Shown here: positions 8,678 through 42,749 of the stretch, piece after piece | Position numbering within the stretch: the first letter of the stretch is position 1 | How the letters are laid out: every line of letters starts with the position of its first letter | Assembly: GCA_963971425.1 (NCBI GenBank) | Contig: OZ020517.1 | Coordinates: 23,508,462-23,572,461 of the forward strand | Source of the DNA: Bryoerythrophyllum caledonicum | Taxonomy: Eukaryota; Streptophyta; Bryopsida; Pottiales; Pottiaceae | Length of the DNA stretch: 64,000 bases | Direction: 5' to 3' | Program-made: the position numbers and the translations under genes | The notes under the pieces: generated by a model | What the model saw: only the letters and a program-made list of their open reading frames with translations | The model's database searches: none | What the model was told of the DNA's origin: nothing

Positions 8678-8679
8678 TA

Positions 8680-9322: not shown

Positions 9323-11670
9323 AATGGAGAACTAAGTGAGCTCCGTGTTTTCTGGTGAGGGGTGCTCTTGGAAGTTAGTCGCAGATTGTGAGTAGAGGGC
9401 AACAAGAGGTGTTGGGCTTGTTGACGACCCCACCTTTACTCCAGATCTAGACGTGTATGAGCTTGGGGAGAGACGTGAAGTGTTGGATTGGGGCTGGGCT
9501 AGTCAGATCTACTTGTGCAAAACCTTTTGGAAGTGAGAGTGTGCCTAGAGGCAAGACCGAGTCGTAAGTCATCTGTGAGAGCTGGAACTTTGAGTGTTGG
9601 GTGATTAGGTTAGAACCTCACTCCAGATCGTATGAACAAGTTGCAGATCTGCTAGATCATGTGAGTACACGTACATAGCTCATACATAAACTTCCAAGAC
9701 TACCCGGATCTAGAAAATCAACATCACAACGCTGGAGCAAGGAGATCAACACACGCTACCACCAACGCCCAAGACGCCCATCGTTGAGCTACGCACTTTC
9801 CTCAACCCTCTCTATCCTTTTTGCATAGTCTTGCTTTCTCTTCTTATTATTTTTATTAACTTTCCAATAGACACCCCACGATATGCACACAGCTCCACTT
9901 GGGAGGCACAACTAGATTAGCACCACATAACACTCACAAATCTCATAGATCTAATAGCACACAACTAATCAACATCACCAAAAAATTAGATCCTAAAACA
10001 CGTTAGAGAGACAACACCAGCACTATCACATTCTTAGACACCATATTAGTAAAGTCAGATCCACAAAAACCACGCGGAAGCGCTGCCAAAAATTACACAA
10101 ACATAACACTCACCACACTTTTTCTCTCACCATCATATGCAATAGTTGTGTGTTAGAAACAGTTAGTAAACATCCAAACAGGGAGCAACAACGAACATAC
10201 AGGAGGAGACCGAGACCAGAAGACAAACACTTTAACAACAGAAAGCCTGCACACAGCCAAGAGCATGCAAGAAAAGAAGATCAGCACGACGACCTAACAA
10301 GTAGAGGAGTATCGTTAGAAACGAAGAACAACATCAAAGGAACTTCCACGACCAGCAGCAGAAACAAAACCAAGAACGACATCAACTCATACAGGCTCGG
10401 CACACAGGCCAGCAGATCACCAAACACAGTACACAGGTTATGTTCCTCCAACCTTGTTTCCGAGTTTCCTTAGTACTCTCCTTGCTTCTTTCTCAGGTAC
10501 ACGCAGTACTCAAGCAAACTAAATCGAAAATATAACCTTGAACTAGAACACAGAGATCTTAAAAAACATAAGAAAAGTAGATACATACAAACTAACGGTA
10601 CTAATAGACAACATTGCACTAGAACTAGAGTTGCATGTGCCCTGCGAAAGTACCGTCCACCTCTTCACAGATCTGAAGAAACCGATTCGAGGCCTATACC
10701 TAGACTACCATCCTGCAGACCAACACAACCGCACCGTCAACATGCAACATCCACATTAACTGGAGGATACTGGCCTAAAGCAAAGTATTCACCTGCGACC
10801 ATCATCAGGTACGGCACTAGAACTATTATCCATACAGGTCAGGTAGGAGAAGATCAGCACCTGTGCACAGGTCCTCTCAACACCACAACACCAGCGAAAC
10901 GAACTTCAACAACAGTTGAAGCCCTATCATACAACATATCACGAGTTAGCCAAAATAGAAGACGTGGTGCTACAACAAATCGGGAGGTCCCGACGAGAGA
11001 GAGATCAAGAGTCAACCTGTCTGCAACATACGATCACAAACATGTAGGCCCGAAATCAAACACCCTGATTCTGCAGAACCTGCAAGCCCGAACTCAAGAG
11101 ACAACACGAGCCTGCAAGTCCGAACCGAAGCGCCAAGACACGAAAGAGCACCCGAAGAAAGATCCACCGAACACAGAAGACCTGGCCACAACAAATCACA
11201 CCACAAGAACGTCGAGACTCCAGAGCCCAGGCACCTTGGCACTGCAGCAACAGGTGGAAGAACACAAGTTACCAAGAGACGCAAAGTCCGCAATACCAAG
11301 AGACGGAGAGTCCAGCTATACCCGCGAAGACTCTAGCTCAGCGGCACAAGGACGACTGGAATTGGAGATCCAAACGACCTTCCTTAACGGACACTCCCCC
11401 TGCCCCCAACGACCTATCACTTTACACCAACGACCTGTCTTTCATCGCCAGCGACCTACCTCTCTCTACCAGCGACCTGCTACTCCTCTCCAACAACCTC
11501 TAAAACCTCCCCAGCGACCTTCCACCTTCCCTACACTACCAACCTATCTCAGCCATCAACCCTGCAAGCCCCAACAAGCCTCCAACGACATACTCAAGGT
11601 AAGTTACTACACCTCTCCTCTTCCTAACCCTTGCACATTAGTAGTGGTATTAGAGTGGGGTGGGGCAGGT
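9323..11670 (+). other. LINE A 5' leader
   Basis: About 2.35 kb before the first good ORF1 start. Only the first few dozen bases show an easily seen match to the LINE B leader. It presumably carries the internal promoter. Frames running into ORF1 from 11236 encode Pro/Gln/Arg-rich sequence with repeated QRP peptides (11400-11520), probably not essential coding. A good splice-donor-like GGTAAGT lies at 11599. Confidence 0.6.
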
Positions 11671-13187
11671 ATGGACACACGCAGTGCGAAGAAAGCTCTC
11701 AATTATGTAGACCACATGGAGATCGAGTCCTCAAGTGAAAGTCTCAAGCGGCTTCAAGGGAAACTAGTGGGGAAGCAACAGCATGAAGAAACATATGCCA
11801 ACAAGAAACAAAAGCCCATTTGTGAAGGAAACAAAGGGCAAGAAGGTATGACTCTAATCACCATCCCTAACATTAGTTGCTTCAAGTTTTGGCTAGATTT
11901 TCAAGTAATGGAGGACCTAGCGGTGGAGGAGGGATTGGACGAACTCTTCAACGAAGAAACAATTGAGGATATGATGACAAGAGGACTCAAAGAAAGTGAA
12001 GCCCGTGAAGTCAAACAAACAATGATAGCCTTCCCACACATCCCTCAAATCCACTATCCACAATCAAGAGGAGCTGGAGGACTAGGAGGACAACACTACA
12101 ACCTCACGCAAGCGCCCACCAACATTCCCGTCGACGAAGGTACGGGTTTCGCTCTAGATTTTCAAGTGGCTATCCATTTTGAACCACCCCCTAACCCCAT
12201 TTTTCATGATGAAGTCATGAAGATGGTTACTAACCGCCTCAAAGCCATGGACATCCTCCTCGGTAAGAAACTCATCAAACCAATCTCCATTCATTGTTTA
12301 AGTGTCAAAAATGGAGGGGGGAAAAAGGGTGTATGGTCCGGACTCATTAAATTGCATCTTGCTAACCGGGCAATTGATGGCCTACTCCTCCTCAAGGGGA
12401 TTAGACCCTTCATTCTCAAAATCGATTAGATAGACGTGGTGGGAAAGGTATGTAAAACCTATCATAGCATTGCACACCACTCTAGTCTTTCAATTAAGAT
12501 ACAAAGCCCATCTTTGCAAAACATGGATGCTAACCACCTCTTTAAAGAGGTCCTTGAAACTAGCTTTAAACGTGGGCATGACTTTGAAGTAACTAACGTG
12601 CAAAAGGCTAAAGGTGATGGATTTGCCTTCATCATGACCACCACCCCGCAACAAGCCAAGAAAATTCAAGAGCTACAAGTAACCGCAAGACAAGAAGTCT
12701 TTCAAACAAAGAAGCCCCTTGGAAGAACTCACATCACCAAGGAAATGAAGGCCAAGAAAGACGCCCTCACTCTAACACTCTCCCACCTTCCTATACTAAT
12801 GAGTGTTATTGAGACCACTAGGGCTATCTACATGATCATAGGAGATACTAACATTGGCTCTATTTGGTTTCACAAGGATAATGGAGTTTGCCACAACGGT
12901 AGTGCAAATGTGGTATGCACTAACCCAATTGTGTATAGGGCATTTGTGGGGAAAACCATTCCCATAGGAGGCCACTTCGTGGAGTTCGCTCCTCATTGAA
13001 GAAGCATTGATGGAATCGAGGCCCCCACCCAAGCTCAACTCATAGAGTTTGGATTTGGAGACATCAACAAAGCCATCATCAACACGGTGGAGACCTTCAA
13101 ACTCAACACCCCGTCACAAGCTATCACCAAGAAGGACCTAGTGGAAGCGTTTGAAGCAAACAACAAAATCTTGCGACAAGAAGTCAA
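11671..13187 (+). pseudogene. LINE A ORF1, 5' part (two nonsense codons), cut by LINE B
   Basis: It aligns throughout with LINE B ORF1: conserved peptides include FKFWLDFQ, GIRPFILKID, VVGKVCKTYH, VWFHK-like IWFHKDNG, and NPIVYRAFVGK. The start chosen is the ATG at 11671, equivalent to the start used for LINE B ORF1. Two stops break it: TAG at 12427-12429, where LINE B has an Asn-Glu codon pair, and TGA at 12997-12999, where LINE B has Arg. The frame runs into the LINE B insertion at 13187 and resumes at 25723. The product would be the nucleic-acid-binding ORF1 protein of the element, but no named domain such as RRM or CCHC can be seen. Confidence 0.85.
13177..13187 (+). repeat. LINE B target-site duplication, left copy
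   Basis: CAAGAAGTCAA, repeated exactly at 25712-25722. Removing LINE B and one copy restores the LINE A ORF1 reading frame across the joint. Confidence 0.93.
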
Positions 13188-13330
13188 GAAGAAGAAGAAC
13201 GCCGGTCTCCAAAGGAGCCGGCGTGAATAAAGTGTCTGTTCATTCCACTACTAAGACCATGCCCACCGGACAAGGAATTAGTAAACTGGAACTACTTCCC
13301 CCTCTCGAGGGTAGACACTATGTAACAGGT
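13188..13330 (-). repeat. LINE B 3' end: double-hairpin module and (TTC)n tail
   Basis: On the minus strand it reads from GTTACATAGTGTCTACCC through AAGTAGTTCCAG, a first hairpin (GTTCCAG with CTTAGTAGTGGAATG arms), the linker ACAGACACTTTATTCACG, and a second near-perfect hairpin (GCCGGCTCC / GGAGACCGGC), ending in TTCTTCTTCTTC. The same order occurs at the 3' ends of LINEs A, C and D. It is likely the RNA structure recognised by the element's reverse transcriptase at the start of target-primed reverse transcription, as known for other LINEs with conserved 3' stems. Confidence 0.85.
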
Positions 13331-13594
13331 GACCGAATACAAACCAAACTCACAAACAATCAACGTTACAACTAACTAAGCAAGTCGCCAAAACCACACA
13401 ACCAACAAGTCAGGATAAGTCCGGGCGGAGAAGCAATTAAGGGGGGGTCTTGTATATCGGCGAGGGCTTGGTTGTTTTCAATTTTACGTTTATGTAGCAA
13501 AATGGACATGGCATATTGAATAGCGATGGTGTTAATGTTTTTAAAGGTGTTTTTGGTTGTTTCAATGGGTATTTTGAAGGTATCTTCAAGCGTT

Positions 13595-13860
13595 CTCATA
13601 GATGGGATAAAGGTAGTGGCACGAGCGCCGGATGTGATAACAATAAGGGGGTCCACCTTCCATCCAATGGTAATGATGTCGTCAATGAGGGGTTGATATT
13701 TGTTAATTTTGTTTTGGATTGTTTCCGGGGAAAATCTATCATTGCAATATGTGAATTCAATGAATTGAATGGTGTAATTTAGGTTAATGTGGTCGGGTGG
13801 CGGGTCATTGTATGGTAAACCTTTAACACAAAGGATGTCCGGTTTGAGCCTAGCATTGCA
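13595..13860 (-). other. Candidate PD-(D/E)XK (restriction-like) endonuclease domain in ORF2 C-terminus
   Basis: The pattern is KPDILCVKG, about 20 residues, YTIQFIEFTYCNDRF, about 8 residues, KINKYQPLIDDI, GWKVDPLIVITSGA. A PD motif, a strand with an acidic residue (FIEF), and a following Lys in a helix (K..KYQPL) are what restriction-like endonuclease domains of R2-type LINEs and related retroelement proteins show. The same pattern is kept in LINE A and, with His for Pro in the PD and Gly for Glu, in the decayed LINE C. Family assignment is inferred by eye. Confidence 0.5.
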
Positions 13861-15999
13861 ATGACATCTTTGGGTCCCACATGAGCATGGGAGTAGCCAA
13901 GAGGGGACCGTATTTTCTTGTGGGTTGTTATTAAAAGTGCCGGCGTTCATTAGTATAAAACATCTCGCTTTATTGTAGGAGGTGATTAGTTTTCGGACTT
14001 CCCATACCGCTTTATTATGCCTTTTAATAATTAGAGAGTGTATGTGGTGGTTTTGGCATTTGAGTAGAACATGTAGCCATGTGTCGGGGTCTATTGAGGG
14101 GCATATGGGGCATGTTATGGATGGGAATCTTTCTATTCCAAAGAAGAGTTGTTTGCGAGCGTTTCCCATATACTGACCAGTACGGAATTTGATGAGGCAT
14201 GTTATTTGTGAGTCTGAGATGATGGGATTTTTCCAAAAGTTTGTAGAGAGTTCCTTGTCTATGTCATTATTGTTAGTCCATTTTTCTATATTAGGAATAT
14301 TTTCTGAGATTGTGTCAAGGTTGTTGTAGAGGTCTTGTTTTTTGAGATATTTACCCAAGAATCTAATTGGGCCTTTGTCGGGGGTATCTTCTTTGGAAGG
14401 CCAATCTTCTTTTTGAAAGTAGTATGGGGTGGCATGGGCGTGTTCGTGTGGGTCTTTGGCATTTTTGTGTGTTTTTTCTCGGCCTTCTTTTGCAAGTTTG
14501 TCTGCTTGTTCGTTGCCATCAATGTTGGCATGGGCTCTCACTTTGTGAAGGGTTGTAATTTGTGTACGGTTTTGTAACATTTGGACCATTGATGTTAATA
14601 TGTTTTGGTCGGGGTGACTATTGTGAAGGGTAGGATGTGTTATTTGAGTATTTAGTAGGTAAAGTGCATTTATACAATCAGTGAATATATGTGCGGGTTC
14701 GTTGTTGTATTTTGTTGTGATGATTTGTAGTGTTTTGTGAATGGCCATAAGTTCTGCTCTGAGGATATTTTGTAGTCCATGGAGTCTTTTGGCTAGTTTA
14801 ATTTCTTTGGTAGAATTATATATGCCATAGCCAGCTTTTTCTCTGCGCCAAGAGCCCGGGCTAATTTGTTCTGGTGGTTTAAAAGAGCCGTCGGTGTAAT
14901 AACTGTGTGCGGGGTTAAATTTTGGTGTGGTATGAGTTGGGTAGTCTGGGAGAGGGGGAGGTGTAATGGAGTAGTTTAATGTGTTGTTGATATAGTTTAA
15001 TTTTGACCAGTTTTTATTTTTGTTTACGGGGGTTTGTAAGGGTGTTGGTTGGGCCGGTTTTGTGTATGGTCGTTGTATGTCTAGATTGTCTGTTATGGAG
15101 GTAAGTTCCGCAAGTTGTTCTAGGGAGCCAAGGGTTTGATTTTGATGATGGACGCATAGTATTTGTAATGTAGATGGCTCAGTTCGGGGTTTTTTAAGCT
15201 CGGGTGGAATATTAGGTTCTACGTATGGTATTGTGTCTGCTTCGAATACTGCAATGATGTGGGAGTCTGGGAATGGGTTTGAATGTTGGTTGTTGTTTTG
15301 GTACCAATTGTTGTTCGGTGTGACGATGATTGTTTTTGTGTTATTTGGATCGTGTTTGGCAGCGAGTCTAGCCCAATGTATGGCTTGTTCCATGTCTTTC
15401 TCGTTGTGGGGGTGAGCTATGCCATTTCCGATCCATTTGTGTTCAAAGGCCTTGCCTAGGGATCCAAATATTTTGTCTCTTTCGTACGGTGAGTAGAATT
15501 TATTTAGTTTGGTAGGGCATGTGATCGGGGAGGAAAAGTATGAGTGCTCGATGTTAAAGGATGAGATTAGTGAGTCTAAAATGGGGTTGGGTATTGTATA
15601 TTGTGCATTTTTGAGGGGGTCAGTTTTTGGTATTTGGTATTTATATCTTTGATATAGCCATATTAGTTCGGTTTCAAAGGGTTGGGTTGTTGGTTCGATG
15701 TTTGTAGGAGTTTGTAATTTTGTATTATATTGATTCCATAGCCATTGGAGTCGGGTAACAGGAATGGTGTGTAAATGTCGGCCGTTATCTTCGAATAGAT
15801 GTGCTTGATTGTTATCTATTTGAATTGTATTTGAAGATGTAAGGATGTCGTTTTCGGGGTTACATTCTATTGTGTAGATGTTTAAGAGTGGGATAATTAT
15901 GGGTGGTGATATAGATCTTGTGTCTGAAAGTTGTTCTTGTGGGTGGTGGGCAAGGATGATATCAGAGTATATTTTCTTTTGGATTTCTTGGTAGTATTG

Positions 16000-16165
16000 T
16001 ATTAATTTTTCGGTGTTATGTGTGGAGGTATTAGTGTCGTGTCGTGGAAAAAGGTCTCTTTGGGGGAGCCATTTATTGTATGTATTATCATTGTATTGCC
16101 ATTGGCATAAATATTTTGTGTAGGTAGTTTGTATGTTATTTGTGTCTGTGTGTTGGATGTGTTTA
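16000..16165 (-). other. Chromodomain-like segment in ORF2
   Basis: TKYLCQWQYNDNTYNKWLP, then QRDLFP and after about 12 residues LIQYYQEIQKK. This fits the chromodomain scheme: a YLxxW strand, a YxxW motif, an acidic DL and a C-terminal LIxxY helix. LINE A (31090-31260) and LINE C (39820-40010) retain it in part. Chromodomains are usual in chromoviral integrases and unusual in LINE ORF2 proteins. The call rests on pattern alone. Confidence 0.5.
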
Positions 16166-19100
16166 TGGCGTATGATGTTATTAATGGGATATGTGGTAGG
16201 GTTTTTGGGGATGTATGTAGGGGGACGGGGATGGTATGTATGTGGTGGATTAGGGGGATTGATTGGCGTGGGGATATTTCTTGGGATGGTGTTATTGTTG
16301 ATGGTGATGAATGGATCTTTAAGTATATGAGAGTATGGGTGTATGTCGCAATAAGTATGACATGTGGTGGGGCATGTTGGGTGGCAAAATAGTTGTTTAG
16401 CAATATTTAGTGCACTTTTTATTAGTTTGGATGGGGTGAAGTGGTAGGTTTTGAAATCCTCATTGTTCATGATGTGTGTGCCGTTAGGTAAAGTAATTTG
16501 GTTTAGTTCAAAAATATTTTTTGAGAGGAGTTTTTGCAGAAGTTTTTGGGAGAGTTGGGCATTGAGTGTGTTATGATTTAGTGTTTCTTGGCGCCATAGT
16601 ATTTCTAGTGTTGTAGGATTAATGAGGAAGTTTGGGAGTGTACTTTTGAGGTGGGCTTTCGCTATATGTTTTAATAAGAAGAATGTTCGTGTTATTGGTG
16701 ATCTTATGCAGTCACTTTTTTTAATTCTGGGTATGTTTTCGGCGCCACCATATTGGGCAAGGACATAGTTAGTTAATCCATTATATATTTTCCCAAGTCT
16801 TCCTTTATCGTTTAAAGCATTTTGCAGTTGTTCACCTATGCATCGGAGGTATGCGTTTTTGAGGGAGAAAGCTTCTAGTCCAAATAGGTTATGTGGTAGT
16901 TGGGTTATTGCGTTTGACATACATTTTGGTAATCCACATATGGTTTTTTGTATGGCTATTATTTTTTTATCAAGTTTTTTGATAGCTGGCATAGAGTATG
17001 GTACTCCGTAGAAACTGTATGCCACACCTGGACGTAATACGGTATCAATCATTTTTATTTTTTGTTTCATGGTGGCCGGGCATGTTGTTAGTTCATTACA
17101 TTGTTTTATGAGTTTCGTCATTGTGGCGTGGATTTGGATTTTCCATTTTAGTGATGGAACAAGGTTTGTACCTAAGTATTTGTATGGTTCATTTTGGTGT
17201 AATATGGGGATCGGTTGATTGCGGTAATTGATATTAGAAGCTTGCATTAGGGCTTTAAAAGTGGTAGGGTTTAATTTGGATTTGTTTGGGCATCCCGTAG
17301 CGGCACATTTTGGGACACCTACGTCCATTCCGGTCCATTTGCAATATCTATGGATTTTGTTAAGTTGTATTTGGATAGATTTAATTTTGTTAGTTATGAC
17401 GGCAAGATCATCTGCGTATGCGGCAGAGTTTATGGTGGTTTTTGATGTACCAAAGGTGTATCCGTTGTTACCCCGTTCTAGCCATCTAAGTAGAGGTTCT
17501 AAAAATATAATGAATAGGTATGGGCTAAGGGTATCTCCTTGTATTGTTCCTCGTTGAATGGGAATAGATTTTGTCTTTCCAAAGTGTTCACCAATATAGT
17601 GGGTAGACGATTGAGAGTAAATATTTCCAACTAGTGTGGTTGCGTCTTTTGGGTACCCAAGGTCGTTCATTATTGCTAATAGTCGAGCGTGATCTATAGA
17701 GCCGAAGGCATTTTTGAAGTCAATATATAGAATATATATGTCTTGATTTGTGAATCTTGCGTCTTCTAATGCGGCTATTATGGTTTGTATTTGTCTAGAG
17801 GTGCTTCTTTCTGCTCTAAATCCTTCTTGACTGTCATGTAGAATTTTGAATTTTTCCCCGTATGAGGATAGTATAGAGGTAAGTGTACTAGTGAAGAGTT
17901 TATATATTGTGTTAGCTAATGCGATTGGTCTATGATTTGGTAGAATTGATGGGTCTCCTTTTTTGTATAGTAGAATTGTTACACTTGTTTTCCATGAAGA
18001 TGGTATTTGTTTTTGTTTATAACATTGGTAGAAAAAGAGGAATAGTAGTCTATGGAATTTTGGGGGCATATTTTTTAGAATTGAGTTCGGTATACGGTCA
18101 GGGCCTGGAGCTTTATTGGTGCCTAGGTTACGAAGACATGTGTCGTATGTGGCTCTGTTGAAGTATGTATGTAGTGGGGTTTCTGGTTAGCCCCTTGTGT
18201 CTAGGGTAAATCCATCTAGGTCGTGCCATGGATATTGGCGTACTGCACATGTACATTTGGTTAAATGATGTGGTTGGTAGTGGCATGTTGGTACTGTGGG
18301 TCTATTATTTTTTGTTTGTTGAGTGAATATTTCATTGGCAATGTCTTCTGGGCTAGTTAAGATGTTATTATGTTGGTTTGTGATACAATCTAGCGGTGGA
18401 GATTCAAGATTTTTAAACACTCTTCTGTTTATTTTTTTAGGACTAGTTTCATACAGTTGTCTGTATTTTGAGATGGCTTTTTTGATGTTGTCTTTGGCAT
18501 ATTTTGTGGTAATTTTTCGAGCTTGAATGTTGGCATTCTTTGCGATTAGCGCTATGTTTTTTATCCATGAATCATGAGGTAGATCCGGGAGAGGTGGGGC
18601 AGGAATTTGGTCGTTTTGTAAGTTTAGCAGTTCATTACATATGGGGTGGTTGCGCCATTGAGGGTTATTTCTAACTATTCTAATAGTTTTCCGGATTACA
18701 TGGTATGTAGTTATGTGTTGTTTCTATGTTTTAGAAAGTTTTCTGGGAAGATATCCGCCTTGTTGAGATGTTCGGTTTGTCATTTGAGGTATAGGTTGGG
18801 CTTTACAAGTTTGTTCAAGCGTATCAGAGATTTTATTAATAAGTATGTCTAGGGTGTGGCATGTGTCTTGCCATTGTATTTGTGTTAGGTGGTTATTATT
18901 TTCGAGGGTGTTTATGAGGGAGTCAATTTGTATGGAGTTTCCTTCAAAGAGTTGGGTATTGAATTTTTCTAAATTCTCTTTTGGGATGGGGTTGAGTATA
19001 CGTATGGTGTCATTATTTGTGATTATGGGGGTGCGACTGATTAGTATGTTATTTGGAATGTGTAGTTGTATGGGCAAGTGGTCTGAGTTGAGAATGACGT

Positions 19101-20460
19101 CCTTGTTTGTTGTAGAGGTATATTGTGCATTATTGTTTGTATTTATGTAGAAGCCGTCTATTAGGCTCCAGTCACCATAGTTATAACCACCTTGTCTAGA
19201 GTATTGTGTGTCAGTTTTTATGTAAGTGAAGTTTAAGTTTTCTGTGAATTGCCGCCATTGGTAATTAGCAGTTTGAGGGGGGGTGATATGGTTTCCATTT
19301 TGTCGACCAATTAGTGCTATGTCTCTATTAAAGTCTCCGCATAACAAGTAAGTGTGGTTAGGGTTATTGTTAATTTGAGATGTGATAGTGTTTTGTATGT
19401 CGATGATGAATCTAGTATCTTCAGGGTGCGATGGCATATACATGTGGAGGATTAACCATGATTGTAGTGGCTGATTAGTGATTCTAATTATTTGGAGGTA
19501 TGGGGATATGTGCATTGGGGTAGAGATTTTTTGGATGTTGCCTGGGAAGGCATGTTTTTTGTGTATTAATGTGAGTAGTCCACCTCGGCTTGGTGTGTAT
19601 GGTCTTCGTTGTTGGATGCATCTGGTTAATGCATGTGTGTTGTTGAAAATAAGTTTGTAGTCTTGAAACATGTTTTGTATATATTTTGTAGATTTTGTGG
19701 CAGATAGTTTTGTTTCTTGAATGGCTATAAAGGCTGGTGGTGTATTTGTGTGTGTAATCAAGGTTTGCAAGCTAGGGAGGGCGGTGTTTAATGATGCGGC
19801 GTTCCATGTAATTATGTTCGTGTTTTCATTGTATGAATTAGTATTTTGGTTTTGTGGAGGGAGGTGAAGGGATAGAGGTGGTGGATGGATATATTCTGGT
19901 ATGGGGTCAAAACACTTTAGCGATGCGTGAATTAGATTATTAGGGAGGTATGGGAATTTTTGTTGTGTTGTAGTGTATGAGGGAGGGGTGGTTTGTTTAT
20001 GTAAAAAGTCATACAATTCTTTGTGTATTGAGTTTCCGTGTTTTAAGATACTTTGGTTTTCTTCAAGGAATTTTGTATAGGGGTGTGGGGTATGGATGTG
20101 TCTTTCGGGTGGGTTTTGTAAGTTTGATAGGGTTTGTAGGAGTGTATTGGTCCACGATGTTATAGTCGGGTTTTGTGGATTTAGAAGGCGATTGCATTCG
20201 TCTATGTTTGGATGGATAGTAATTACCAGGACGTATAAGATAAATGGTGGTGGGTGTATATTTTGTTGTTGTATGTATTGGGCAATGTTTGTGTGTGTGG
20301 TGTTGTGCGTTAGGTGTAGTGTGTGTGTGGTTTTTAATAGGGGTGCAAACGTTTGGGCGATGTGCCTATATTCTGGTTGTAGTTTGATAGTATTTGGTAT
20401 AAAGTATAGTTTGGCGTTTTTCTTATGTGGTGTAGGGTGTCTTTTTAGTATATTAGGCAT

Positions 20461-20484
20461 GGGTCCTGGGTTGGTTTCTATGTC
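20461..20484 (-). other. 2A-type ribosome-skipping motif, DIETNPGP
   Basis: Preceded by LLLTLGG and followed by MPNILKR. It matches D-(V/I)-E-x-N-P-G-P exactly. In known 2A sequences the ribosome fails to form the last Gly-Pro bond, separating the upstream from the downstream product. Here it would free a 331-residue leader from the enzymatic part of ORF2. LINE A keeps the identical motif at 26758-26781. Confidence 0.8.
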
Positions 20485-20749
20485 ACCACCTAGGGTTAGT
20501 AGTAGTTTATAGTGTTTTGATTTTGTGTTATTTTTTAGGATACTTATTTTTTGTGTGTATTTTAGTGGTAAATCCTGGTATTGTGTGGTTCCATTTACCT
20601 TTTCGTATTTGTTTTGATTTCCTCCTAGGGGTGTTTTATAGTAGTGTGGGTTATTGATGTGGTTTTTGGGAGGGTTGTGTAGTTTGGTGGATATATTTGT
20701 TTTTGGTTTCATCCATTGAGGGTCTATTGGTTTGTATTTCTTTTGGTTT

Positions 20750-21255
20750 TTTTCCGTATACGTGCTTATGTGTGTATTTTTGTGTATGTGTTTTTGTGTG
20801 TATGTGTTTAGTTGTTTTATTTTATTTGTGTGTGTACATATATGTGTGTATATTCTTATAGCATTGTGTTTTCTTGTGGTTATGTAGGTTTTACTATATG
20901 TGTTTATGCGTGTGTTTGTGTGTGTTTTTGTGTTTATGTATGGTTTTTTGTATGGGTATGTGTATGTATTTTGGTTTATGTAAGGGATTTTGTTTGTGTG
21001 TGAGTTTGTGTTTATGTATGTGTTTGTGTGTTTGTTTGTGTGTGTGTTTGTGTATTTGTTTGTGTGTGTGTTTGTGTGTTTGTTTGTGTATGTTTTTGTG
21101 TGTTTATTTTTGTATTTGTTTGTGTGTTTGTGTATGTATGTTTTTATGTATTTTTTTGTTTTGGTATTTGTATGTGTTTTTGTTTTTGTATGTAGTTTCC
21201 ATGTGGGGGTTTGGGTACTATCTTTGTATCTAGTATTGTCTTGCGTATAGTTTGA
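20750..21255 (-). repeat. Low-complexity (ACACAAAC)-type tract inside ORF2 leader
   Basis: On the plus strand this is a long run of TGTGTTTGTGTG variants. On the coding strand it encodes repeated THTNK / TNTHTNKY peptides. It remains in frame with ORF2 despite its repetitive nature. LINE A has a comparable A/C-rich tract at 26160-26640. Plus-strand frames here (Cys/Val/Phe-rich) are shadows. Confidence 0.85.
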
Positions 21256-21452
21256 GGTATAAGTTTTGTATTTTGTTTTGTATTGAGTATAAAGTTGAAT
21301 ACATTTTTTGTACCTCGTCCGTATATACGTATGTTCTATCATGTATTTGTGTATTTGTACTCTACTATATGTGGTATTGTCTATGCTAAACCGTATAGTA
21401 GATGTATAATATACTATAGAGTAGATGAAAGTAATTGTGTGGTCATGGAGCT

Positions 21453-23084
21453 TCACATGTTTGACGGGTCTTCTTCAAGTGACAAGTTCTTCTTACCCGT
21501 GATGGCAGCCATACTCTTGAGTACCCCAAACAAAGCATCTTGGAGGTTTTCCATTTCTCCCTTGAGCTCCTTGTGCATTTTGTCGGTGTATTCGCGGTTC
21601 TCCTTCCTAATCTTCTTGTTGTTGTCCTCCAAGAGTTCCACCATGTCTTTTTTGGTGAGGGTTTCGTTCTTCTCTTGCATCTTGAAGGTTGATATTGTAT
21701 TCACTATTGCGGTGTTGATGTCTTCAAACCCAAAGTTCTTAACTTGCTCCTCGGTAGGACGGTGAGTGCCTTCTAAGCTTCTTCGATGTGGCGCAAAGTC
21801 CACATAGTTGCCCTTCATCACAAATGTCTTGTGTACAAAAGTCCTATACACAATAGGATTAGCACATAAAACGTTGGCATTGCCATTGTGAGAGTTTCCA
21901 TCTTCTTTATGGAACCAAACATTTCTCACATTGACTCCACCCATAATTCTATAAATCTCATGAGTGGTATGCATGACATCAAGATGGATGGGAAGAGGAG
22001 AAAGGGTTAAGGTTAGGGCTTCTTTCTTTTCCTTGGACTCCCCCGATCCGTTGGGTCCCTTGTTGTCAAATGTTTGTCTTGCTTGTAGCACCTCCCCTCC
22101 CACGGTGATGTTGTGTGCAAGCATCTTCTTGGTTTGGAGAGGCGTTGTGGCAATGATGAATGCATGTGCATCCCCATAGCCCTTTTGCACACCGGAGACC
22201 TCAAATTCTTGTCCACGGTGAAAACTACTCTCAAGGACTTCCTTGAAGAGAGCTTGGGCTGAGAAATCCGTCAAGTGTTCACTTTTGACCTTCACGGAGA
22301 GGTTAGTATTCTTTGCAATCCCTAAATAAGACTTGCACACTTTCCCAACAACAAGCTCATTGTCAATGTCAAGTATAAATGGTCTAATTCCTTTAAGGAG
22401 CATTAGGCCATCACATTCGGGTTTCAATAGGTGAAGCTTAATGTTACCCGTCCATACCCCTTTCATTCCACCTTTCTTAATACTTAAGCATTGAATTGTA
22501 AGTGGATCCACTATTTTATCCCCAAGTGCAATGTCCATCTTTTTGAGTCTAGCAAGAACCATCTTTTTGACATCATCATGCATGAGAGGGGTTTTAGGGA
22601 GCTCAAAGTAAATGGCAACATGGTAGGTGAGAGACAAACCGGAGTTTTCGTTGGTTTTGATGTCAAAGGGAATTTGAGTTATGTTGAAGTGTTGTCCCAC
22701 AACTCCCATTCTAGACATAGGATAAAGGATTTGTGGGATTCTAGGGAAGGCAAGTCTTGCATTACATACCTCTTCCGCTTCTTCCTTCCTCATGCCTCTA
22801 GTCATCATGTCCATCACTGTTTCGCCGCTGTAGAGCTCCTCAATCCCTTCCTCCACCGTCAAGGCCTCCATGGCCTGAAAACCCATCCAAAACTTAAACT
22901 TGCTAAGTTCTGATGTTTGAATTGACTTACCTTTCTCCGTGGAAGATGCTTTGGTTTTTTTGTTGGAGCTTGTTATTTCTCCGCCTCTCCTAGTAGTCTT
23001 TGAGCTTTGGGCTTTGAGTAGGCTCTTCTCTGGAGAATCCACCTCCATGTCGAGGCCCACTTGTCGCTTGTTGTTATCAGCCAT
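21453..23084 (-). CDS. LINE B ORF1 protein, 543 residues, intact
   Basis: The chosen start is the ATG at 23084 (MADNNKRQVGLDMEVD). The frame is open further up to a GTG at 23807, but that part holds 34-residue tandem repeats and is probably leader. The central region, from SKFKFWMGFQAMEALT to NPIVYRTFVHKTF, aligns with LINE A ORF1 without gaps of note. The C-terminal 80 residues are Lys/Glu-rich and likely coiled-coil (MVELLEDNNKKIRKEN), which would allow oligomerisation. The frame ends SNM-stop in ATGTGA, overlapping the ORF2 GTG. ORF1 proteins bind element RNA. No RRM, CCHC or esterase motif is visible, so the fold is unknown. Confidence 0.88.
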   Translation of the reverse strand: MADNNKRQVGLDMEVDSPEKSLLKAQSSKTTRRGGEITSSNKKTKASSTEKGKSIQTSELSKFKFWMGFQAMEALTVEEGIEELYSGETVMDMMTRGMRKEEAEEVCNARLAFPRIPQILYPMSRMGVVGQHFNITQIPFDIKTNENSGLSLTYHVAIYFELPKTPLMHDDVKKMVLARLKKMDIALGDKIVDPLTIQCLSIKKGGMKGVWTGNIKLHLLKPECDGLMLLKGIRPFILDIDNELVVGKVCKSYLGIAKNTNLSVKVKSEHLTDFSAQALFKEVLESSFHRGQEFEVSGVQKGYGDAHAFIIATTPLQTKKMLAHNITVGGEVLQARQTFDNKGPNGSGESKEKKEALTLTLSPLPIHLDVMHTTHEIYRIMGGVNVRNVWFHKEDGNSHNGNANVLCANPIVYRTFVHKTFVMKGNYVDFAPHRRSLEGTHRPTEEQVKNFGFEDINTAIVNTISTFKMQEKNETLTKKDMVELLEDNNKKIRKENREYTDKMHKELKGEMENLQDALFGVLKSMAAITGKKNLSLEEDPSNM

Positions 23085-25711
23085 AAGGGTGAGTAATCTC
23101 CAATGTAGCCTTGTGAGATACTGTGTATTGCCTGGATACTTGTAGTGGAACCAGCTCAGCAGTAATTGAGTTAAAGAAGTAGCTTGTATGTGGCCTGAGA
23201 TGAATGAGTAAGGAATTGATAAACAAAAGGTTAGGGTACTTACCTGGCTCTCTGGAGGGGGGGAGGTTACTACGTGGGGGAGGCAGGTCGTTGGCGCTTG
23301 AAGAAGGTCGCAGGGCCAACTCTCCGGTTGCTCGTCCGCCGGTCGTTGCAGTTTCAGGGGGGTCACAGACCTTTGAGGGTTTGGGGAGGAGTCGTGGGCT
23401 GTTGAGGTAACTAGAGGTTTCGGGGGGCCTGTGTGAGTCCTTCTGCTCCTTGTGTTCGCTCTGTCGGGTATCTTACGCGCTGCGTTGAGTCGCTCGTGTT
23501 CTTGAGGAGACCTGTGGCCTTCGTGTGTTGCGTTGTGAGTCTTTCTGCTTCTCGTGTTTGCTCTGTCGAATTTCTTGTGCGTTGCGTTGAATCGCGCGCA
23601 CACTTGAGGAGACCTGTTGCCCTTGTGTGCTGCGTTGTGGGTCCTTCTGCTTCTCGTGTTCGCTTTGTCGAGTTTCTTGCGCGATGCGTTGAATCGCGCA
23701 TGCACTTGAGGAGACCTGTTACCCTCGTGTGCTGCGTTGTGAGCCCTGCTGCTTCTCGTGTTCGCTCTGTCGGGTATCCTACACGCTGTGTTGAGTCGTT
23801 CGTGCACTTGCGGAGACCTGTTGTCCTTGTGTTCTGCGTTGGGGCGTCGCTTGTGTTCTTCGTTGAGACTCTTGTGTTCGGGAGGGGACCTTCTCCTCCG
23901 CTTGTGTACTCCGTTGGACCACTTGTGTACTGTGTCAAGTATCCGCGCCTTGCAAGGTTTGGAGCTTCCTGAAAGTCCTAGGTTGCTGATGTTTATGAGG
24001 TTCGGGTTGGGAGTCTAGGTTTTGCTGTTTTCTAGTGCGGGTAGTGGGGATCTGTCTGTGATGCCTGGGGAGTCGGGTGTGGACAGGGAGGGGGGGAGAG
24101 TAGAATTCCGAAGGGGAGGGAGAATCAGTTTGGATGGGGGGTGTTTCTAGACCTGGGCTTTGTGAGGGTGACTGCGGAGAGATTTTTGTGAGTGTGTGTC
24201 TACGAGGGGGTTTTAGTAGGGAGATCCGGGGGATGCTGATGAGGGAAAGGCCTCTAGTGCTCTGCGGGGGTTGCGAGGACGGTCTGTGGGGAGTTTCTCC
24301 TGTGGTGATCGGGTGGGTGGTTTGTGTGTGAGCAGGGAGGGGGGAAGAGTAGGATTCCGAGGGGAGGGGGGAGGCAGTTTGGAGGGGGGGTGATTCTAGA
24401 CCTAGATTTTGTGGAAGTGACCGTGAAGGGGGGTTTTTGGTTGTGTGTCTACGATGGAGTTCGAGAGGGGAGATCCGGGGGTTTCTGATGTGTGGTGGGA
24501 AGGGGTTTTTTGTAGGTGCTTGCGGAGAGGCCCTGGGGGGAAGCACTACAGCGGAGCTCTTGGTGCACTGCGGAGACTGCGAGGCCGCATAAAGGGGAGG
24601 TTTGACAGGTGTGCCGGGCAGTCTAAGGGTCCAGGTACTTTCGTGATTTTTTCCTCTCTCCTGTCTGTCTACGGTGGCTGCAGGTGCTGTTGAGAAATGG
24701 TTTAGGGTTTTTGAGGTATGTTGTTTGACTGCGGGTGCTGGGAGGGGGTTTTCGAGGGGCGAGAGGGGAGTGAGAGAGAAGAGGGGAGAAGGGGGGGGGA
24801 AAGTTGGTTGATAGAGGGAGAAGGATCCTGATGTATGGATGAAGGTATTGGTGTTGTATCTAAGTGTCTGGGGCGTGATGTGGAGTGGTGGGAAGGCTTG
24901 GGGTTGTAAGGTAGGGATACTCTGTTTGATGCAATAACAAAAAAATGGAGAAGTAGTGGGGGTAGTTAGAAGACGTACCTGGGTCCGTTGGATCTGAATG
25001 TTGTGTTTGTGTGCACAGGTCCGGTGCCGTGTGGGGGGTGTTCTCCGACGTTGTGGAAGGTGTTGCTGCTACACGCGATGTGCTCCTCGGAACTTTTGGA
25101 GATGCTGTTGCGCTGCCTTTTGTGGGGACGATTCTACAGCTGATGTGTCTGAAACACTTAACAAAGCACACTGATATATGTATGTGACTGCATATTGTGT
25201 TAACAAAAGTAAATAAAGACAACAAATATTTGCAAGCGTAGAGGGGACGAGGGGTAGCCTGTGATGATGAGTTGGGGCTGCGTTGCAGCACTTGGTGATG
25301 ACTTTGCTCAATCTTGAAGGTTGAGATCCTGGATTGGGGAGGGGAGACTTGGTGGTGAGGATTCCAGATCTGATCTCGGTGCTCCAGATTTGGGATGGGT
25401 TATTGTCTGCGTGTACTAAGTGATTGCAGATCTGGTCCAACACTAAGTTCCCTAGCTTCAGAGCATACTCACACAGATCTGCACCAGCTTAGAGCATCTA
25501 CAAACTTCCCTCCTCAGATCTGGTGTTGAGCCTTCCAACACTACTAACATCTCAAATCTCACCAAACTACCACGGATTTGCATACTACGAGGGCTCTCAA
25601 CAAGGCCAGCCAACTCCTATTGCACGTAGTTTGCAGCTCACAGGTTAAGTCCCCCACCTCCCCTCACCAGAAAAAACGGAGCTCACGCACTCATTCTCAA
25701 AAGTTCTTTGT
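23085..25711 (-). other. LINE B 5' leader with presumed internal promoter
   Basis: About 2.6 kb. It begins, reading inward from 25711, with ACAAAGAACTTTTGAG and soon GTGAGCTCCG, shared with LINE A. It includes G-rich/C-rich tracts (24040-24600, 24730-24800) and the 102-bp tandem repeats. Several in-frame peptides are Pro/Ser/Thr-rich with no recognisable domain. No TATA box position is claimed. Confidence 0.6.
23432..23840 (-). repeat. Four tandem 102-bp repeats upstream of ORF1
   Basis: Start points at about 23435, 23537, 23639 and 23741 are spaced 102 bases. Each unit carries CTTCTGCTTCTCGTG and TTGAGGAGACCTGT (plus strand). The unit is a multiple of three, so it encodes 34-residue repeats (ANTRSRRTHNAAHKGNRSPQ) in the ORF1 frame. 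Two other frames are also open through it, so coding use is uncertain. Confidence 0.85.
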
Positions 25712-25722
25712 CAAGAAGTCAA
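25712..25722 (+). repeat. LINE B target-site duplication, right copy
   Basis: CAAGAAGTCAA, matching 13177-13187. Confidence 0.93.
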
Positions 25723-25876
25723 AGAACAAGCGGATGCAAAAGCCAAGGAACTCCAAGAAATCAAAGACCAAATGTTGAAGATCCAAGAATGTGTTGGTAC
25801 CACCTTTGCAATGTTGCAAAATATCATGGGGTCCAAACCACATACCTCGATTGAAGGGGACTCGTCAAAAATGTGA
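25723..25876 (+). pseudogene. LINE A ORF1, 3' part
   Basis: It continues the frame broken at 13187. The joint reads EV-K-EQADAKAKELQEIKD and the combined frame is exactly 557 codons including the stop. It ends SSKM-stop, the stop lying in ATGTGA at 25871-25876, as in LINE B (SNM-stop). The content is a short heptad-like Gln/Lys/Glu stretch followed by FAMLQNIMG, equivalent to the coiled-coil tail of LINE B ORF1. Confidence 0.9.
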
Positions 25877-28800
25877 AGAACAACAACCTCAAGGCCATTA
25901 ATTCTACACCCCACCCGTATTGTTTAAAATACGACCATAGTAAAATACACCTAGTCAAAACCATAGCAATACTAACTAACAAATACTTATACTATACAAT
26001 ACTATTAATCTTACACAAAATACTACTAGTATTTTGTAGTATTTACATAGTATTATCCACCATACGTATAGCTATGCACAAAATAGAATACATGGTAGAA
26101 TACATGTTAGTATACATAGAGATGTATTTCACAGTGTATAAAAAAAATAAAAAATAGACTACATACGCTATACCCATATTGTACTGGAACAAAAAATAAA
26201 TACAAATACTATACCAAAAAATATGTATATAACACAAATACAAATACATATACATATACACATACTATACTGGACAAGAATAATGACCTTTATATAAATA
26301 CAAACACAAATACAAACACCAGTATAAATATTGAAATACATACTAATACAAACACCAAAACATACAATGGTATAAATCCCAAAACATATAATAACGCCAC
26401 ATATAAAAAGGACATAAACACCACCTTAAAAACCGACACAAACCATCATACACATATTCTAAAAATAAAAACCACATATACACATGGGCAAAAACAACCA
26501 AGATAAAATACAACAAAACATACATACATCTACACAACACAAAAACAAAAACAACCACGAAGAAAAACACAAGGACACAAAATAAGAAAAAAAGTAAAAC
26601 AACCACATCTACCATAAAAATAAATAAACCCACAACTCACACACAAAATACAAACATCCACCTACCCCCAAACCAACAAGACACTAATAACACAACAAAA
26701 CCTTTAAAATACGACACTAAACATAAATACCACAAACTCCTAATACTTCTAGGAGGAGACATAGAAACAAACCCCGGACCCATGCCAAATATACTAAAAA
26801 GACACCCTACACACACTAAACATAAATGCCAAAATATACTTCATACCTAATACCATAAAACTCCAACGAGAATATGAACACATTGCAAAATCCTTCGCAC
26901 CTTTTCTAAAAAACACACATACACTACACCACATACACAACACTTCCCACCCAAACATTGCACACCACATACAACAAAAAAATACGCAGCCACCACCTCA
27001 CATCCTATATGCACTAATAATCACTACTCATCCAAACATAGATGAATGTAACCATCTTCTAAATCCACAAAATCTGAACACTATTACATGGACCAATACA
27101 CTTCTACAAACTTTACTAAACTTACAAAACCCACTAGAACGACATATTTACATTCCACACCCTTCTACTAAATTCTTGGCAGATAACCAAAATATTATAA
27201 ACCATGAGAACTCAATACATAGTAGACTATACGACTTTTTACATAGTCAAGACATACCACCCTCAAATGATACAATAAAATTAGAATTCCCTTACCTCCC
27301 TAACAACCTCATAAATGAATCACTAAAATGTCTAGACCCTATACCAGAGTACACCCACCCACCCCCACCTCCTCCCTACATCCCTCCTCTATATCAACAC
27401 ATTAGTTCAAACCAAGAAAATGCATACATAATCACATGGAATGCCTCCTCATTAAACATTGCCCTTCCTAGCTTACAAAATTTAATCACAAACACAGACA
27501 CACCACCGGCCCTCATAGTCATACAAGAAACGAAACTAACCGCCACTAAATCTACAAAATATATTTCAAAACTATAAACTCATTTTTAACAACACACATG
27601 CACTTACAAGATGCATACAACAAAGGAGACCATACACACCGGGGCGAGGTGGCCTCCTTACATTAATACACAAAAAATATACATTCCCAGGCAACATTAA
27701 CAAAATCCCTCCCCCAATGCACATATCACCATACATACAAATAATTAAAATCACTAATCACCCACTACAACCTTGGTTAATCTTTCACATATATATGCCA
27801 TCCCATCCCGAAGATACTAGATTTCTTTTAGATATACAAAACACTATTACATCCCAAATTAATAATAATCCCAATCATACATACCTATTATGTGGAGACT
27901 TCAACAGAGACATAGTGCTAATTGGCCGCCAAAATGGAAACTGTCATACTCCCCCTCAAAACATTGACTACCAATGGCGTCACTTCACAGAAAACTTAAA
28001 CTTCACTTACATCAATACTGATTCACAATTCTCTAAACAAGGTGGCTATAATTATAGTGATTGGAGTCTAATTGATGGATTCCATATAAATACAAACAAC
28101 AATACACAATACACCTCCACAACCAACAAAGACATTATTCTCAACTCGGACCACTCACCCGTACAATTGCACATCCCAAATAACACACTAATTAGTAGAA
28201 CTCCTATAATCCTAAACAAAGACACTATACGCATACTCAACTCCATTCAAAAAACCAACATAGAAAAATTCAACACAAAATTCTTCGAAGAAAACTCTGT
28301 ACAAATAGACTCCCTCATAAACACTCTCGAAAATAATAATCAATTAACACAAGCACAATGGAAAGAAGCATGCCACACCCTAGACAAACTCATCAATAAA
28401 ATCTCTGATACACTAGAACAAACTTGTAGAGCACACCCAATACCTCAAATGACAATCAGAACTTCTCAACAAGGCGGATACCTACCCCGCAAACTTTCTA
28501 AAACTTGGAAACAACACTTAACCACATACCATACCATACGCAAAACCATCAGAATTGCAAAAAACAACCCTCTATGGCATAACCACCCCATATACAATGA
28601 ACTACTAACTCTACAACACATCCAAATCCCTACCCCACCGCCTCCGGACCTTCCCCATGATACGTGGATAAAAGATATAGCACTAATCACAAAAAATGCC
28701 AACATCCAAGCCCGGAAAATAATCACAAAATACGCTAAAGAAAACATTAAAAAAGCCATCTCAAAGTATAGACAATTATATGAAATCAGCCCAAAAAAAA

Positions 28801-31800: not shown

Positions 31801-33819
31801 CGGCAATGGTATAGCTCACCCCCACAACGAGAAAGATATGGAACAAGCAATACATTGGGCTCGACTTGCAGCCAAACAGGATCCAAATAACACAAAAACA
31901 ATCATCATCATCAAACCGAACAACAACCCACACTTAAACCCATTTCCAGATTCCCATATCATTACATTATTTGAAGCAGATACAATACCATACGAAGAAC
32001 CTACTATTCCACCCGAGCTAAAAAAACCCCGAATCGAGCCATCTTCACTACAAATACTATGCGTCCGTCATCAAAAACAACCCTTGGTTCCCTCGAACAA
32101 ATTGCGGAACTCACCTCCATAACAGACAATCTAGACATAGAGCGACCGTACACAAAACTGGCCCAACCAACACCCACACAAACCCCTGTTAACAAAAATA
32201 AAAATTGGTCAAAACTAAACTATGTCAACAATACAATAAACTACTCCGTCACACCTCTCCCTCTTCCAGACTACCCAACTCACACCACACAAAAATTTAA
32301 CTCCGCACACAGCTATTACACAGATGGCTCCTTTAAACCACCCGAACAAATTAGCTCGGGCTCCTGGCGCAGAGAAAAAGTTGGCTATGGCATATATAAT
32401 TCTATCAAAGAAATCAAACTAGCCAAAAGACTCCATGGACTACAAAATATCCTCAGAGCAGAACTCATGGCCATCCACAAAACACTACAAATCATCACAA
32501 CAGAATACAACAATGAACCCGCATATATATTCACCGATTGTATAAATGCACTTTACCTACTAAACACTCAAATAACACACCCTACCCTTCATAATAGCCA
32601 CCCTGATCAAATCATATTAACATCAATGATCCAAATGTTACGAAACCATACACAAATCACAACCCTCCATAAAGTGAGAGCCCATGCCAACATTGATGGC
32701 AACGAACAAGCAGACAAATTAGCAAAAGAAGGCCGAGAAAAAACACACAAAAATGCCAAAGACCCACACGAGCATGCCCATGCTACCCCATACTACCCCA
32801 TACTACTTTCAAAAATAAGAATGGCCTTCCAAAGAAGATACCCCTGATAAAGGCCCAATTGGATTTTTGGGCAAATATCTCAAAAAACAAGACCTCTACA
32901 ACAACCTTGATACAATCTCAGAAAATATCCCTAACATAGAAAAATGGACTAACAATAACGACATAACATAGAAAAATGGACTAACAATAACGACATAGAT
33001 AATGAACTCTCTACAAACTTTTGGAAAAACCCCAACATCTCATACTCGCAAATCACATGCCTCATCAAATTCCATATTGGGCAGTATATGGGAAATGCTC
33101 GCAAACAACTCTTCTTTGGAATAGAAAGATTTCCATCCATAACATGCCCCATATGCCCCTCAACAGACCCCGACACATGGCTACATGTTCTACTCAAATG
33201 CCAAAACCACCACATACACTCCCTAATTGTTAAAAGACATAACAAAGCGGTATGGGAAATCCGAAAACTAATCACCTCCTACAATAAATCGAGATGTTTT
33301 ATACTAGTGAACGCCGGCACTTTTAATAACAATCCACAAGAAAATACGGTCCCCCCGTGGCTGCTCCCATGCTCATGTACGATCCAAAGATGTCATTGCA
33401 AAGCTAGGCTCAAACCGGACATCCTTTGTGTCAAAGGTTTACCATACAATGACCCACCATCCGATAACGTCAACCAAGACTACACCATCCAATTCATTGA
33501 ATTCACATATTGCAACGATAGATTTTCCCCGGAAACAATCCAAAACAAAATTGACAAATACCAACCCCTTATTGACAACATCATCGCCCTCGGATGGAAT
33601 GTCGACCCCCTTATGGTAATCACATCCGGCGCTCGGGCCACCACCTTTATCCCATCTATGAAAACTCTAGAAGACACCTTCAAGATACCCATTGAAACAA
33701 TTAAAACATCCTTTAAAAACATTAACACCATAGCTATCCAACATGCCATGTCCATTCTTCTACATAAACGCAAAATCGAAAACAACCAAGCCCTCCCAGA
33801 CACACAGGACCCCCCCTAA
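25873..33819 (+). pseudogene. LINE A ORF2, frameshifted polyprotein
   Basis: It starts with GTG overlapping the ORF1 stop. Domains in order: low-complexity leader; 2A motif GDIETNPGP at 26755-26781; APE endonuclease (27400-28200: ITWNASSLN, LLCGDFNRDI, LNSDHSPVQLHI); reverse transcriptase (28850-30400: NNKAPGPDRIP, LYVDFKKAFGSIDHARL, and CADD at the catalytic site near 29815, Tyr to Cys); the chromodomain-like remnant; the unknown block (31730-32000); RNase H (32310-32760: YYTDGSF, YIFTDC, GNEQADKLAKEG); Cys/His cluster near 33140; and the C-terminal KPDILCVKG domain (33410-33660). Multiple frameshifts make it inactive. A 31-32 base tandem duplication interrupts it at 32935-33000. Confidence 0.9.
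26758..26781 (+). other. 2A-type motif in LINE A ORF2, DIETNPGP
   Basis: Same eight residues as LINE B, preceded by LLILLGG and followed by MPNILKR. It is in the frame of the GTG at 25873. Confidence 0.8.
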
Positions 33820-35764: not shown

Positions 35765-35808
35765 TCAAAAAAATTAATTAATACCAAATACTTATTAATG
35801 ACATTGCA
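35765..35808 (+). pseudogene. LINE D, first fragment (ORF2 C-terminal domain)
   Basis: In frame it gives KIN-stop-YQILINDIA, matching KINKYQPLIDDI of the C-terminal domain. It continues at 42750 with ALGWKVDPLIVITS. LINE C interrupts the two with a 10-bp duplication TGACATTGCA (35799-35808 and 42740-42749). Confidence 0.8.
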
Positions 35809-42739: not shown

Positions 42740-42749
42740 TGACATTGCA

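Follow-up and report, generated by a model that had tools for sequence, protein, structure and literature searches.

The 64,000-nucleotide window of Bryoerythrophyllum caledonicum (contig OZ020517.1) that we analyzed carries on its minus strand, a strand that the original prediction did not state, a retroelement, element A, which we believe with considerable confidence to be a decayed long interspersed nuclear element (LINE) of the Dualen/RandI type. Its features and those of related copies are collected in Table 1, and all coordinates are positions in this window. The second open reading frame (ORF2) of the element has two internal stops, where base composition predicts about 143 for this frame and the remaining five frames contain 93 to 197; we therefore regard it as former coding sequence with two later lesions. 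This agrees with the original prediction, made from the sequence alone, of a single frame with only two nonsense codons. The GTG at 21456 is a convention of the tool and not necessarily the start of ORF2, as the frame opens six codons further upstream. The landmark residues are GDFN at 707, SDHLP at 791, YADD at 1347, YLCQW at 1782 and YTDGS at 2187, followed toward the C-terminus by CPIC at 2449, KPDIL at 2538, IEFTY at 2566 and KYQPL at 2586. All of the motifs previously listed, from the apurinic/apyrimidinic endonuclease-type (APE) motifs through YADD, YLCQW, RNase H and the Cys/His cluster to the KPDIL/FIEFTY/K..KYQPL pattern, lie where that prediction had placed them. The modules it proposed are borne out, the chromodomain at moderate strength, but it missed a PCIF1-like domain, a 2A motif, the other copies of the element and a nested insertion.

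Table 1. Coordinates of element A, its modules and the related copies in the window.
Feature	Position	Strand	Remarks
Element A	13188-25697	minus	~12.5 kb
5' region of element A	23085..25697	minus	2.6 kb; 102-bp tandem repeat x4 at 23432-23841
ORF1 from MADNNK, 543 aa	21453..23084	minus	ATG at 23084; ends ATGTGA overlapping ORF2 frame
ORF2 frame, 2,694 codons + terminal stop	13372..21456	minus	two internal stops
2A (StopGo) motif, ORF2 residues 315-332	20461..20514	minus	HYKLLLTLGGDIETNPGP, then Met333 directly
APE-type endonuclease, residues 547-825	18982..19818	minus	Pfam Exo_endo_phos E 4.3e-4, below cut-off
Internal stop codon, residue 911	18724..18726	minus	
Reverse transcriptase, residues 970-1499	16960..18549	minus	family profile bounds; YADD at 1347; Pfam RVT_1 E 5.4e-29
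Internal stop codon, residue 1090	18187..18189	minus	
Chromodomain-like segment, residues 1742-1849	15910..16233	minus	Pfam Chromo E 0.017 for segment, below cut-off
PCIF1-like domain, residues 1854-2115	15112..15897	minus	methyltransferase fold, degenerate catalytic motif (HPHN for NPPF)
RNase H, residues 2180-2328	14473..14919	minus	Pfam RNase_H E 1.3e-12; bounds from family profile search
Cys/His zinc knuckle + restriction-like PD-(D/E)XK endonuclease, residues 2400-2661	13474..14259	minus	
3' untranslated region with terminal hairpin and (TTC)n tail, 184 nt	13188..13371	minus	
Target-site duplication at 3' end of A, inside ORF1 of E/B	13164..13187	plus	aligned to 25698-25722
Target-site duplication at 5' end of A	25698..25722	plus	
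ORF1 of older copy (E/B), split by insertion of A	11395..13187	plus	tblastn 46% over 606 columns; empty-site reading
Rest of older copy (E/B): ORF1 end, ORF2, 3' untranslated region	25723..34104	plus	tblastn 69-84%, blastn 85-87%
More diverged copy C	about 35791..42740	plus	tblastn 45-67%; 3' untranslated region aligned
Copy D, 3' fragment (RNase H to restriction-like endonuclease)	1326..2862	minus	tblastn 42-71%
Short further element fragment	42741-43040		

Pfam scans were carried out on the pieces of ORF2 between the stops, and relatives were collected by a protein search with the reverse transcriptase (RT) part, which yielded 193 proteins, 120 of them listed; counts of relatives below refer to these 120. 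A profile grown from the APE region over the relatives matches the same region of the window at E 9e-64, the sole match of the region in PDB is exonuclease III (E 0.015), and the clade relatives P0069, P0021 and P0016 exceed the Pfam cut-off. Both its profile and its predicted fold relate the C-terminal domain to the restriction-like endonuclease (RLE) of R2, with the PD, the second acid and the lysine helix in register with the R2 enzyme; the RLE alignment comprises 18 of 20 segments drawn from 58 hits, P0066 having been omitted for a long insertion and P0085 as a near copy. The claim of a LINE with two endonucleases is thus upheld, with an RLE akin to that of R2 and an RT that groups with green-algal dual-endonuclease elements, and the predicted presence of both enzymes supports a position outside the RLE-only R2/NeSL LINEs as well as outside the APE-only L1/RTE LINEs. 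Since the window contains nested copies, chimeric readings are possible, and RLE-only proteins also occur among the RT relatives; an RLE-only LINE of the R2/NeSL type adjoining, or fused by the assembly to, an APE-type LINE would place the two endonucleases in separate proteins. We consider this highly improbable, given that a single frame covers both endonucleases, that copies B and C in the window show the identical order, and that APE, RT, RNase H and RLE matches lie within one protein in 19 of the listed relatives. Even less credible is an APE-only LINE of the plant L1 type with a C-terminus that only looks like an RLE. Plant L1 elements have an APE. They possess RNase H as well, according to PMC4640811. 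The RLE fold and the tree both contradict this reading: the domain has the predicted PD-(D/E)XK fold, and the RT lies with the green-algal elements in a tree that contains no plant L1 or RTE sequences. The refuting conditions attached to the original prediction are thus not borne out.

No plant name occurs among the 120 listed RT relatives, and no named relative among the listed matches is a streptophyte, so the relatives do not show the streptophyte lineage of the original prediction. In the open-licence literature, none of the listed papers matched to streptophyte names mentions Dualen or RandI. Clade members with a name come from the green algae Haematococcus, Parachlorella and Pleodorina, while most relatives are metagenomic; a protein search with the C-terminal part returned two relatives. 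In order to place the element we built a quick tree of 106 of the 121 RT rows (match of at least 380 residues) and a careful tree of 63 rows, consisting of 60 of these 106 rows, hand-picked for spread, and three stretches from PDB. The label dual_PCIF was assigned by hand from the quick tree and includes truncated proteins without a visible PCIF1-like region (P0004, P0006, P0012, P0018, P0021, P0036, P0050, P0051 and P0069). In the quick tree 75 rows including the window form one clade (Shimodaira-Hasegawa-like approximate likelihood ratio test, SH-aLRT, 97). In the careful tree the 39 dual-endonuclease rows form one clade (99/89), within which 36 rows including the window are themselves a clade (100/97); their sisters P0090, P0093 and P0098 have APE, RT, RNase H and RLE matches and no detectable PCIF1-like region. 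The RLE-only rows (R2 and relatives) fall on one side of a branch with support 89/92. The APE-only rows need two changes, and human L1 sits on a very long branch. Searches by pattern confirmed no related loci from 5 matches in viral contigs or from 19 matches in genome contigs, the patterns having been derived from one protein and covering close relatives only. We also observed a distant relative, P0101 (2161 aa), with a 2A-like GIEPNPGP, an Exo_endo_phos_2 domain and a weak RLE match, which is possibly another dual-endonuclease lineage.

The stretch following the chromodomain-like segment matches Pfam PCIF1_WW at E 6e-11 (42.6 bits; curated cut-off 31.1), and the model indicates that the PCIF1 fold is retained. 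Pfam yields no WW family for the scanned pieces, even with E up to 1. The domain was aligned over 17 segments out of 52 PCIF hits. The original prediction had spoken of additional modules unusual for the family, which is half right: RNase H and the zinc knuckle turn out to be present clade-wide, and the surprise is the PCIF1-like domain, although it too is common among clade members. At the NPPF position, the window and its close relatives have HPHN, HPNN or HPHS. Among 46 aligned members (rows including the window, match over 200 residues, five of them near-identical Haematococcus rows reading NVPA), a relaxed motif [NDS]Px[FYW] occurs in eight, of which one has [NDS]PP[FYW], and 38 are without it. 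A FASPLN-type stretch is kept in many relatives. It may be argued that the domain is an active adenosine methyltransferase acting on the RNA or DNA of the element, as the fold and, in many members, the FASPLN-type stretch are kept, the relaxed motif survives in eight members and the strict one in one, and the domain is under purifying selection. We regard this as quite unlikely, because the substituted motifs of the window and its close relatives, and the absence of even the relaxed motif from 38 of the 46 members, stand against it, and because disruption of NPPF lowers the activity of PCIF1, as stated in PMC6318281. A PCIF1-like domain that has lost its catalytic motif in most members would most likely bind RNA, possibly the element's own capped 5' end. 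No report of a PCIF1-like domain in LINEs was found in the open-licence literature, although an earlier mention is possible.

Between the RT and the PCIF1-like domain lies the chromodomain-like segment. Pfam Chromo matches the ORF2 pieces at E 0.17, below cut-off, and matches four of six segment members with a best E of 0.0015, still below the curated cut-off. A profile built from these six segments (window, copy B, P0001, P0002, P0003 and P0008) gave 18 hits in PDB at E up to 10, the best at 4.9e-4 and four below 0.01; 17 of them are chromodomain proteins by name, CBX and Polycomb among them, and one is uncharacterised. The structural model of the segment shows three strands and a helix (predicted local distance difference test, pLDDT, mostly 46-70), and this low-confidence model retrieved one chromodomain row in Foldseek at E 0.43. 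A chromodomain profile matches only four of the listed relatives, all of them close ones, and by a crude motif 5 of 45 slots, window included, contain chromo-like strings. The chromodomain-like block proposed earlier is therefore supported at moderate strength, by the profile and by Pfam below cut-off, and it is limited to close relatives and possibly P0008. In other relatives a PHD finger occupies the stretch between RT and PCIF1-like domain: Pfam finds it in 5 of 21 at E up to 0.1 (best E 4.8e-6, above the Pfam cut-off in P0027), and a motif count finds it in 14 of 45 slots, five of which are Haematococcus near-copies.

Upstream of these modules, the ATGTGA string that closes ORF1 also terminates ORF1 of the older copy E/B. 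ORF1 has eight homologous proteins, 39-45% identical (only candidates sharing most words were scored). It contains no recognised Pfam domain (one match, E 0.21), and its profile retrieved from PDB only helical proteins such as apolipoproteins (best E 0.097). As that profile matched none of the 121 RT-side proteins, regions upstream of their 2A motifs included, a shared ORF1-2A-ORF2 layout is not shown. The 2A core within ORF2 reads DIETNPGP in element A and fits the consensus D(V/I)ExNPGP given in PMC4981915. Copies A and B preserve the motif, and copy C has the altered form DIAQNPGP. Among the listed relatives, many of which are incomplete at the N-terminal start so that the share with a 2A motif is affected, the motif is complete and upstream of the APE in P0051 and P0082 (Haematococcus) and in P0083; P0016 has it upstream of the APE with Q for E, the form in P0101 is weaker, and P0040 has an NPGP that looks fortuitous. 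The linker that precedes the motif seems, by eye, unconserved between copies A and B, and a methionine follows NPGP immediately, so one could suppose that the match is due to chance and that ORF2 begins by re-initiation at Met333 directly after it. This is unlikely in the face of the full D(V/I)ExNPGP preserved in copies A and B and of its presence upstream of the APE in three relatives, two of them Haematococcus, and with one letter changed in a fourth. A genuine 2A motif would free the enzymes from whatever product is translated ahead of them. Two further observations concern this part of ORF2. A degenerate 12-bp (TGTGTTTGTGTG) repeat at 20771-21198, corresponding to residues ~87-229, encodes a Thr/Asn/Lys-rich linker preceding the 2A motif, and residues 333-546 (19819-20460), between 2A and APE, form a conserved segment with a ratio of nonsynonymous to synonymous substitution rates (dN/dS) of 0.16 between copies A and B.

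By tblastn and blastn the window contains at least four copies of the element: A, the older E/B (copy B where ORF2 and the 3' end are compared), C and D. Element A is inserted in ORF1 of E/B, since the flanks, when joined as an empty site, read ORF1 in frame. The ends of A together with the flanking target-site duplication, whose score was equalled by 2 of 2000 random 40-mers of the window, define an element of about 12.5 kb. The RNA of its 3' untranslated region folds with -65.5 kcal/mol (z -4.1 against shuffles), and the region is similar in copies A, B and C, where most of 44 consensus pairs are kept; a two-sided change occurs in only one of the 44, so covariation gives little support. Rfam returned nothing at gathering thresholds. 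The tails of green-algal RandI elements are (ATT)n or (CTATTT)n according to PMC3747384. The (TTC)n-like tails here join their flanks at TTGA (A, 13175-13200), TTTGA (B, 34090-34112) and TTTTGA (C, 42725-42745); with only three readable 3' junctions, a target preference is a hint.

We compared copies A and B by the Nei-Gojobori method with Jukes-Cantor correction. The dN/dS is 0.12 for the APE, 0.10 for the RT, 0.13 for RNase H, 0.17 for the PCIF1-like domain, 0.34 for the chromodomain, 0.21 for the zinc knuckle with RLE and 0.20 for the RLE core. The proportion of synonymous differences (pS) exceeds that of nonsynonymous differences (pN) with z from 2.7 to 14.5, and comparisons with C and D likewise place pS well above pN; dN/dS for the RLE (A-C and B-C) and the APE (B-C) was not computable because synonymous sites are saturated. 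The low values indicate that both endonucleases and the PCIF1-like domain were under purifying selection together. As part of the divergence between A and B would reflect decay after insertion, this constraint is, if anything, underestimated. As a separate observation, synonymous divergence (dS) between A and B (13186-34104) is uneven, about 0.7-0.8 in APE and RT and about 0.24-0.32 in RNase H and RLE, as if one copy were a recombinant or template-switch mosaic.

Taken together, we hold it very likely that the locus is a decayed Dualen/RandI-type LINE, in which ORF1 is accompanied by a giant ORF2 polyprotein whose modules run 2A - APE - RT - chromodomain - PCIF1-like - RNase H - zinc knuckle - RLE, with a structured 3' untranslated region and a (TTC)n tail; the roles of the modules and the mechanism are proposed below. 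An APE N-terminal of the RT, an RLE C-terminal of it, an RNase H and an RT in one clade with green-algal dual elements are all features of that group. PMC4640811 and PMC3636483 define Dualen/RandI by the presence of both APE and RLE, and on this definition we file the element there.

Several points weigh against this assignment. The tree was made without the published Chlamydomonas Dualen sequence. The APE match is weak on the window sequence alone, and the quick tree does not join the three dual proteins without a PCIF1-like region to the 75-row clade. The careful tree, which is unrooted, gives no settled order of the dual, RLE-only and APE-only groups, so a position of the dual clade between the other two is not part of our claim. 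The target-site duplication, 24-25 bp long, is imperfect, with two gapped places and two mismatches. The two stops of copy A mean that the whole protein cannot be made, and mapped codons include nine stops in B, 14 in C and nine in D. Catalytic residues are changed to CADD for YADD in B, to FDHYR, YAND, KHDLL and IGFTY in C, and to KPYIL and IKFKY in D; with stops in every copy as well, no working copy is seen in the window. Finally, Pfam detects no cysteine protease in the pieces of ORF1 and ORF2, nor in three frames of the 5' region. The original description of Dualen reportedly included a cysteine protease, which the definition by APE and RLE given above does not use. Dualen/RandI non-LTR (long terminal repeat) retrotransposons were reportedly treated by Kojima and Fujiwara in 2005, as cited in PMC4640811 and PMC3636483. 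A Josephin-type cysteine protease is found in four of the listed relatives, all in the clade of the window, and lies ahead of the APE in all three that were scanned, which fits the original description.

An element of this composition would be copied by target-primed reverse transcription from its structured (TTC)n end. One endonuclease, for which we favor the APE, would nick the first strand, the RT would begin synthesis on the element's RNA at its hairpin and (TTC)n end, RNase H would clear the template, and the RLE would cut the second strand or help to join it. The chromodomain, replaced by a PHD finger in some relatives, would tether the complex to histone marks. We tentatively suggest, as a possibility that is itself doubtful, that the Dualen lineage captured the cap-specific adenosine methyltransferase PCIF1 early and turned it into an RNA-binding module that is mostly dead as a catalyst. 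By recognising the capped 5' end of full-length element RNA, or the RNA polymerase II machinery producing that RNA, this module would couple completion of the first strand to the second-strand cut by the RLE, and the landing site would be chosen by a histone reader, chromodomain or PHD finger, that is exchangeable within the same region of the protein. It is still an open question by what means LINEs achieve second-strand cleavage and obtain full-length, capped templates, and two unrelated endonucleases kept under joint selection, together with a PCIF1 relative and a histone reader, make such a division of labour testable. The range of PCIF1-like domains would moreover take in a retrotransposon clade, and the use of 2A would include LINEs with two endonucleases.

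Other features lie elsewhere in the window. A Tc1/mariner-like element at 5855-8693, with a transposase frame at 6437-7345 (HTH_Tnp_Tc3_2 and DDE_3), has, on either side of this frame, 594-bp inverted repeats that are 98.3% identical and contain 190-bp tandem units; it looks young. A Helitron-like N-terminal piece at 51140-51613 is probably a Helitron, and a Snf7 (ESCRT-III) piece at 56471-56839 and an annexin piece at 63250-63690 are probably host genes. A 21-bp tandem repeat, CATCGCGTGGCCGCTCAGAGA, is present in about 6 to 9 copies at 48828-49031.

The combination of two endonucleases is in itself of a known kind. Dualen/RandI elements likewise combine APE and RLE with RT and RNase H in a single polyprotein, and share a microsatellite-like 3' repeat with the element described here (PMC3747384). 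What sets the present element apart is its chromodomain, PCIF1-like domain and 2A motif, which we did not find described for the group, and that no cysteine protease was detected; as far as our searches of the open-licence literature went, neither the PCIF1-like module, nor an exchangeable histone-reader slot, nor a 2A motif has been reported in print for these elements. R2 shares the zinc knuckle and RLE fold, a related RT and, presumably, the target-primed mechanism, but it is specific for 28S ribosomal DNA, and those of its solved chains that were matched in this analysis lack a PCIF1-like domain; to our knowledge, R2 has neither APE nor RNase H. PCIF1/CAPAM, the cap-specific N6,2'-O-dimethyladenosine (m6Am) methyltransferase, shares the methyltransferase core and a helical part over ~218 residues, whereas in the ORF2 domain NPPF is replaced, no WW domain was found and the domain sits within a LINE polyprotein. 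LINEs bearing 2A motifs reportedly include L1Tc, sea urchin elements and others, and are said to have been treated by Heras in 2006 and Odon in 2013. Such LINEs share the D(V/I)ExNPGP motif within the proteins of the element (PMC4981915) and are described as APE-type, in contrast to the dual-endonuclease element here, and the open-licence literature yielded no dual-endonuclease case with 2A. Chromoviruses, the chromodomain-bearing Ty3/Gypsy elements, likewise carry a chromodomain in a retroelement polyprotein, but they are LTR elements according to PMC5348765, while the chromodomain-like segment described here lies in a LINE, between the RT and the PCIF1-like domain.

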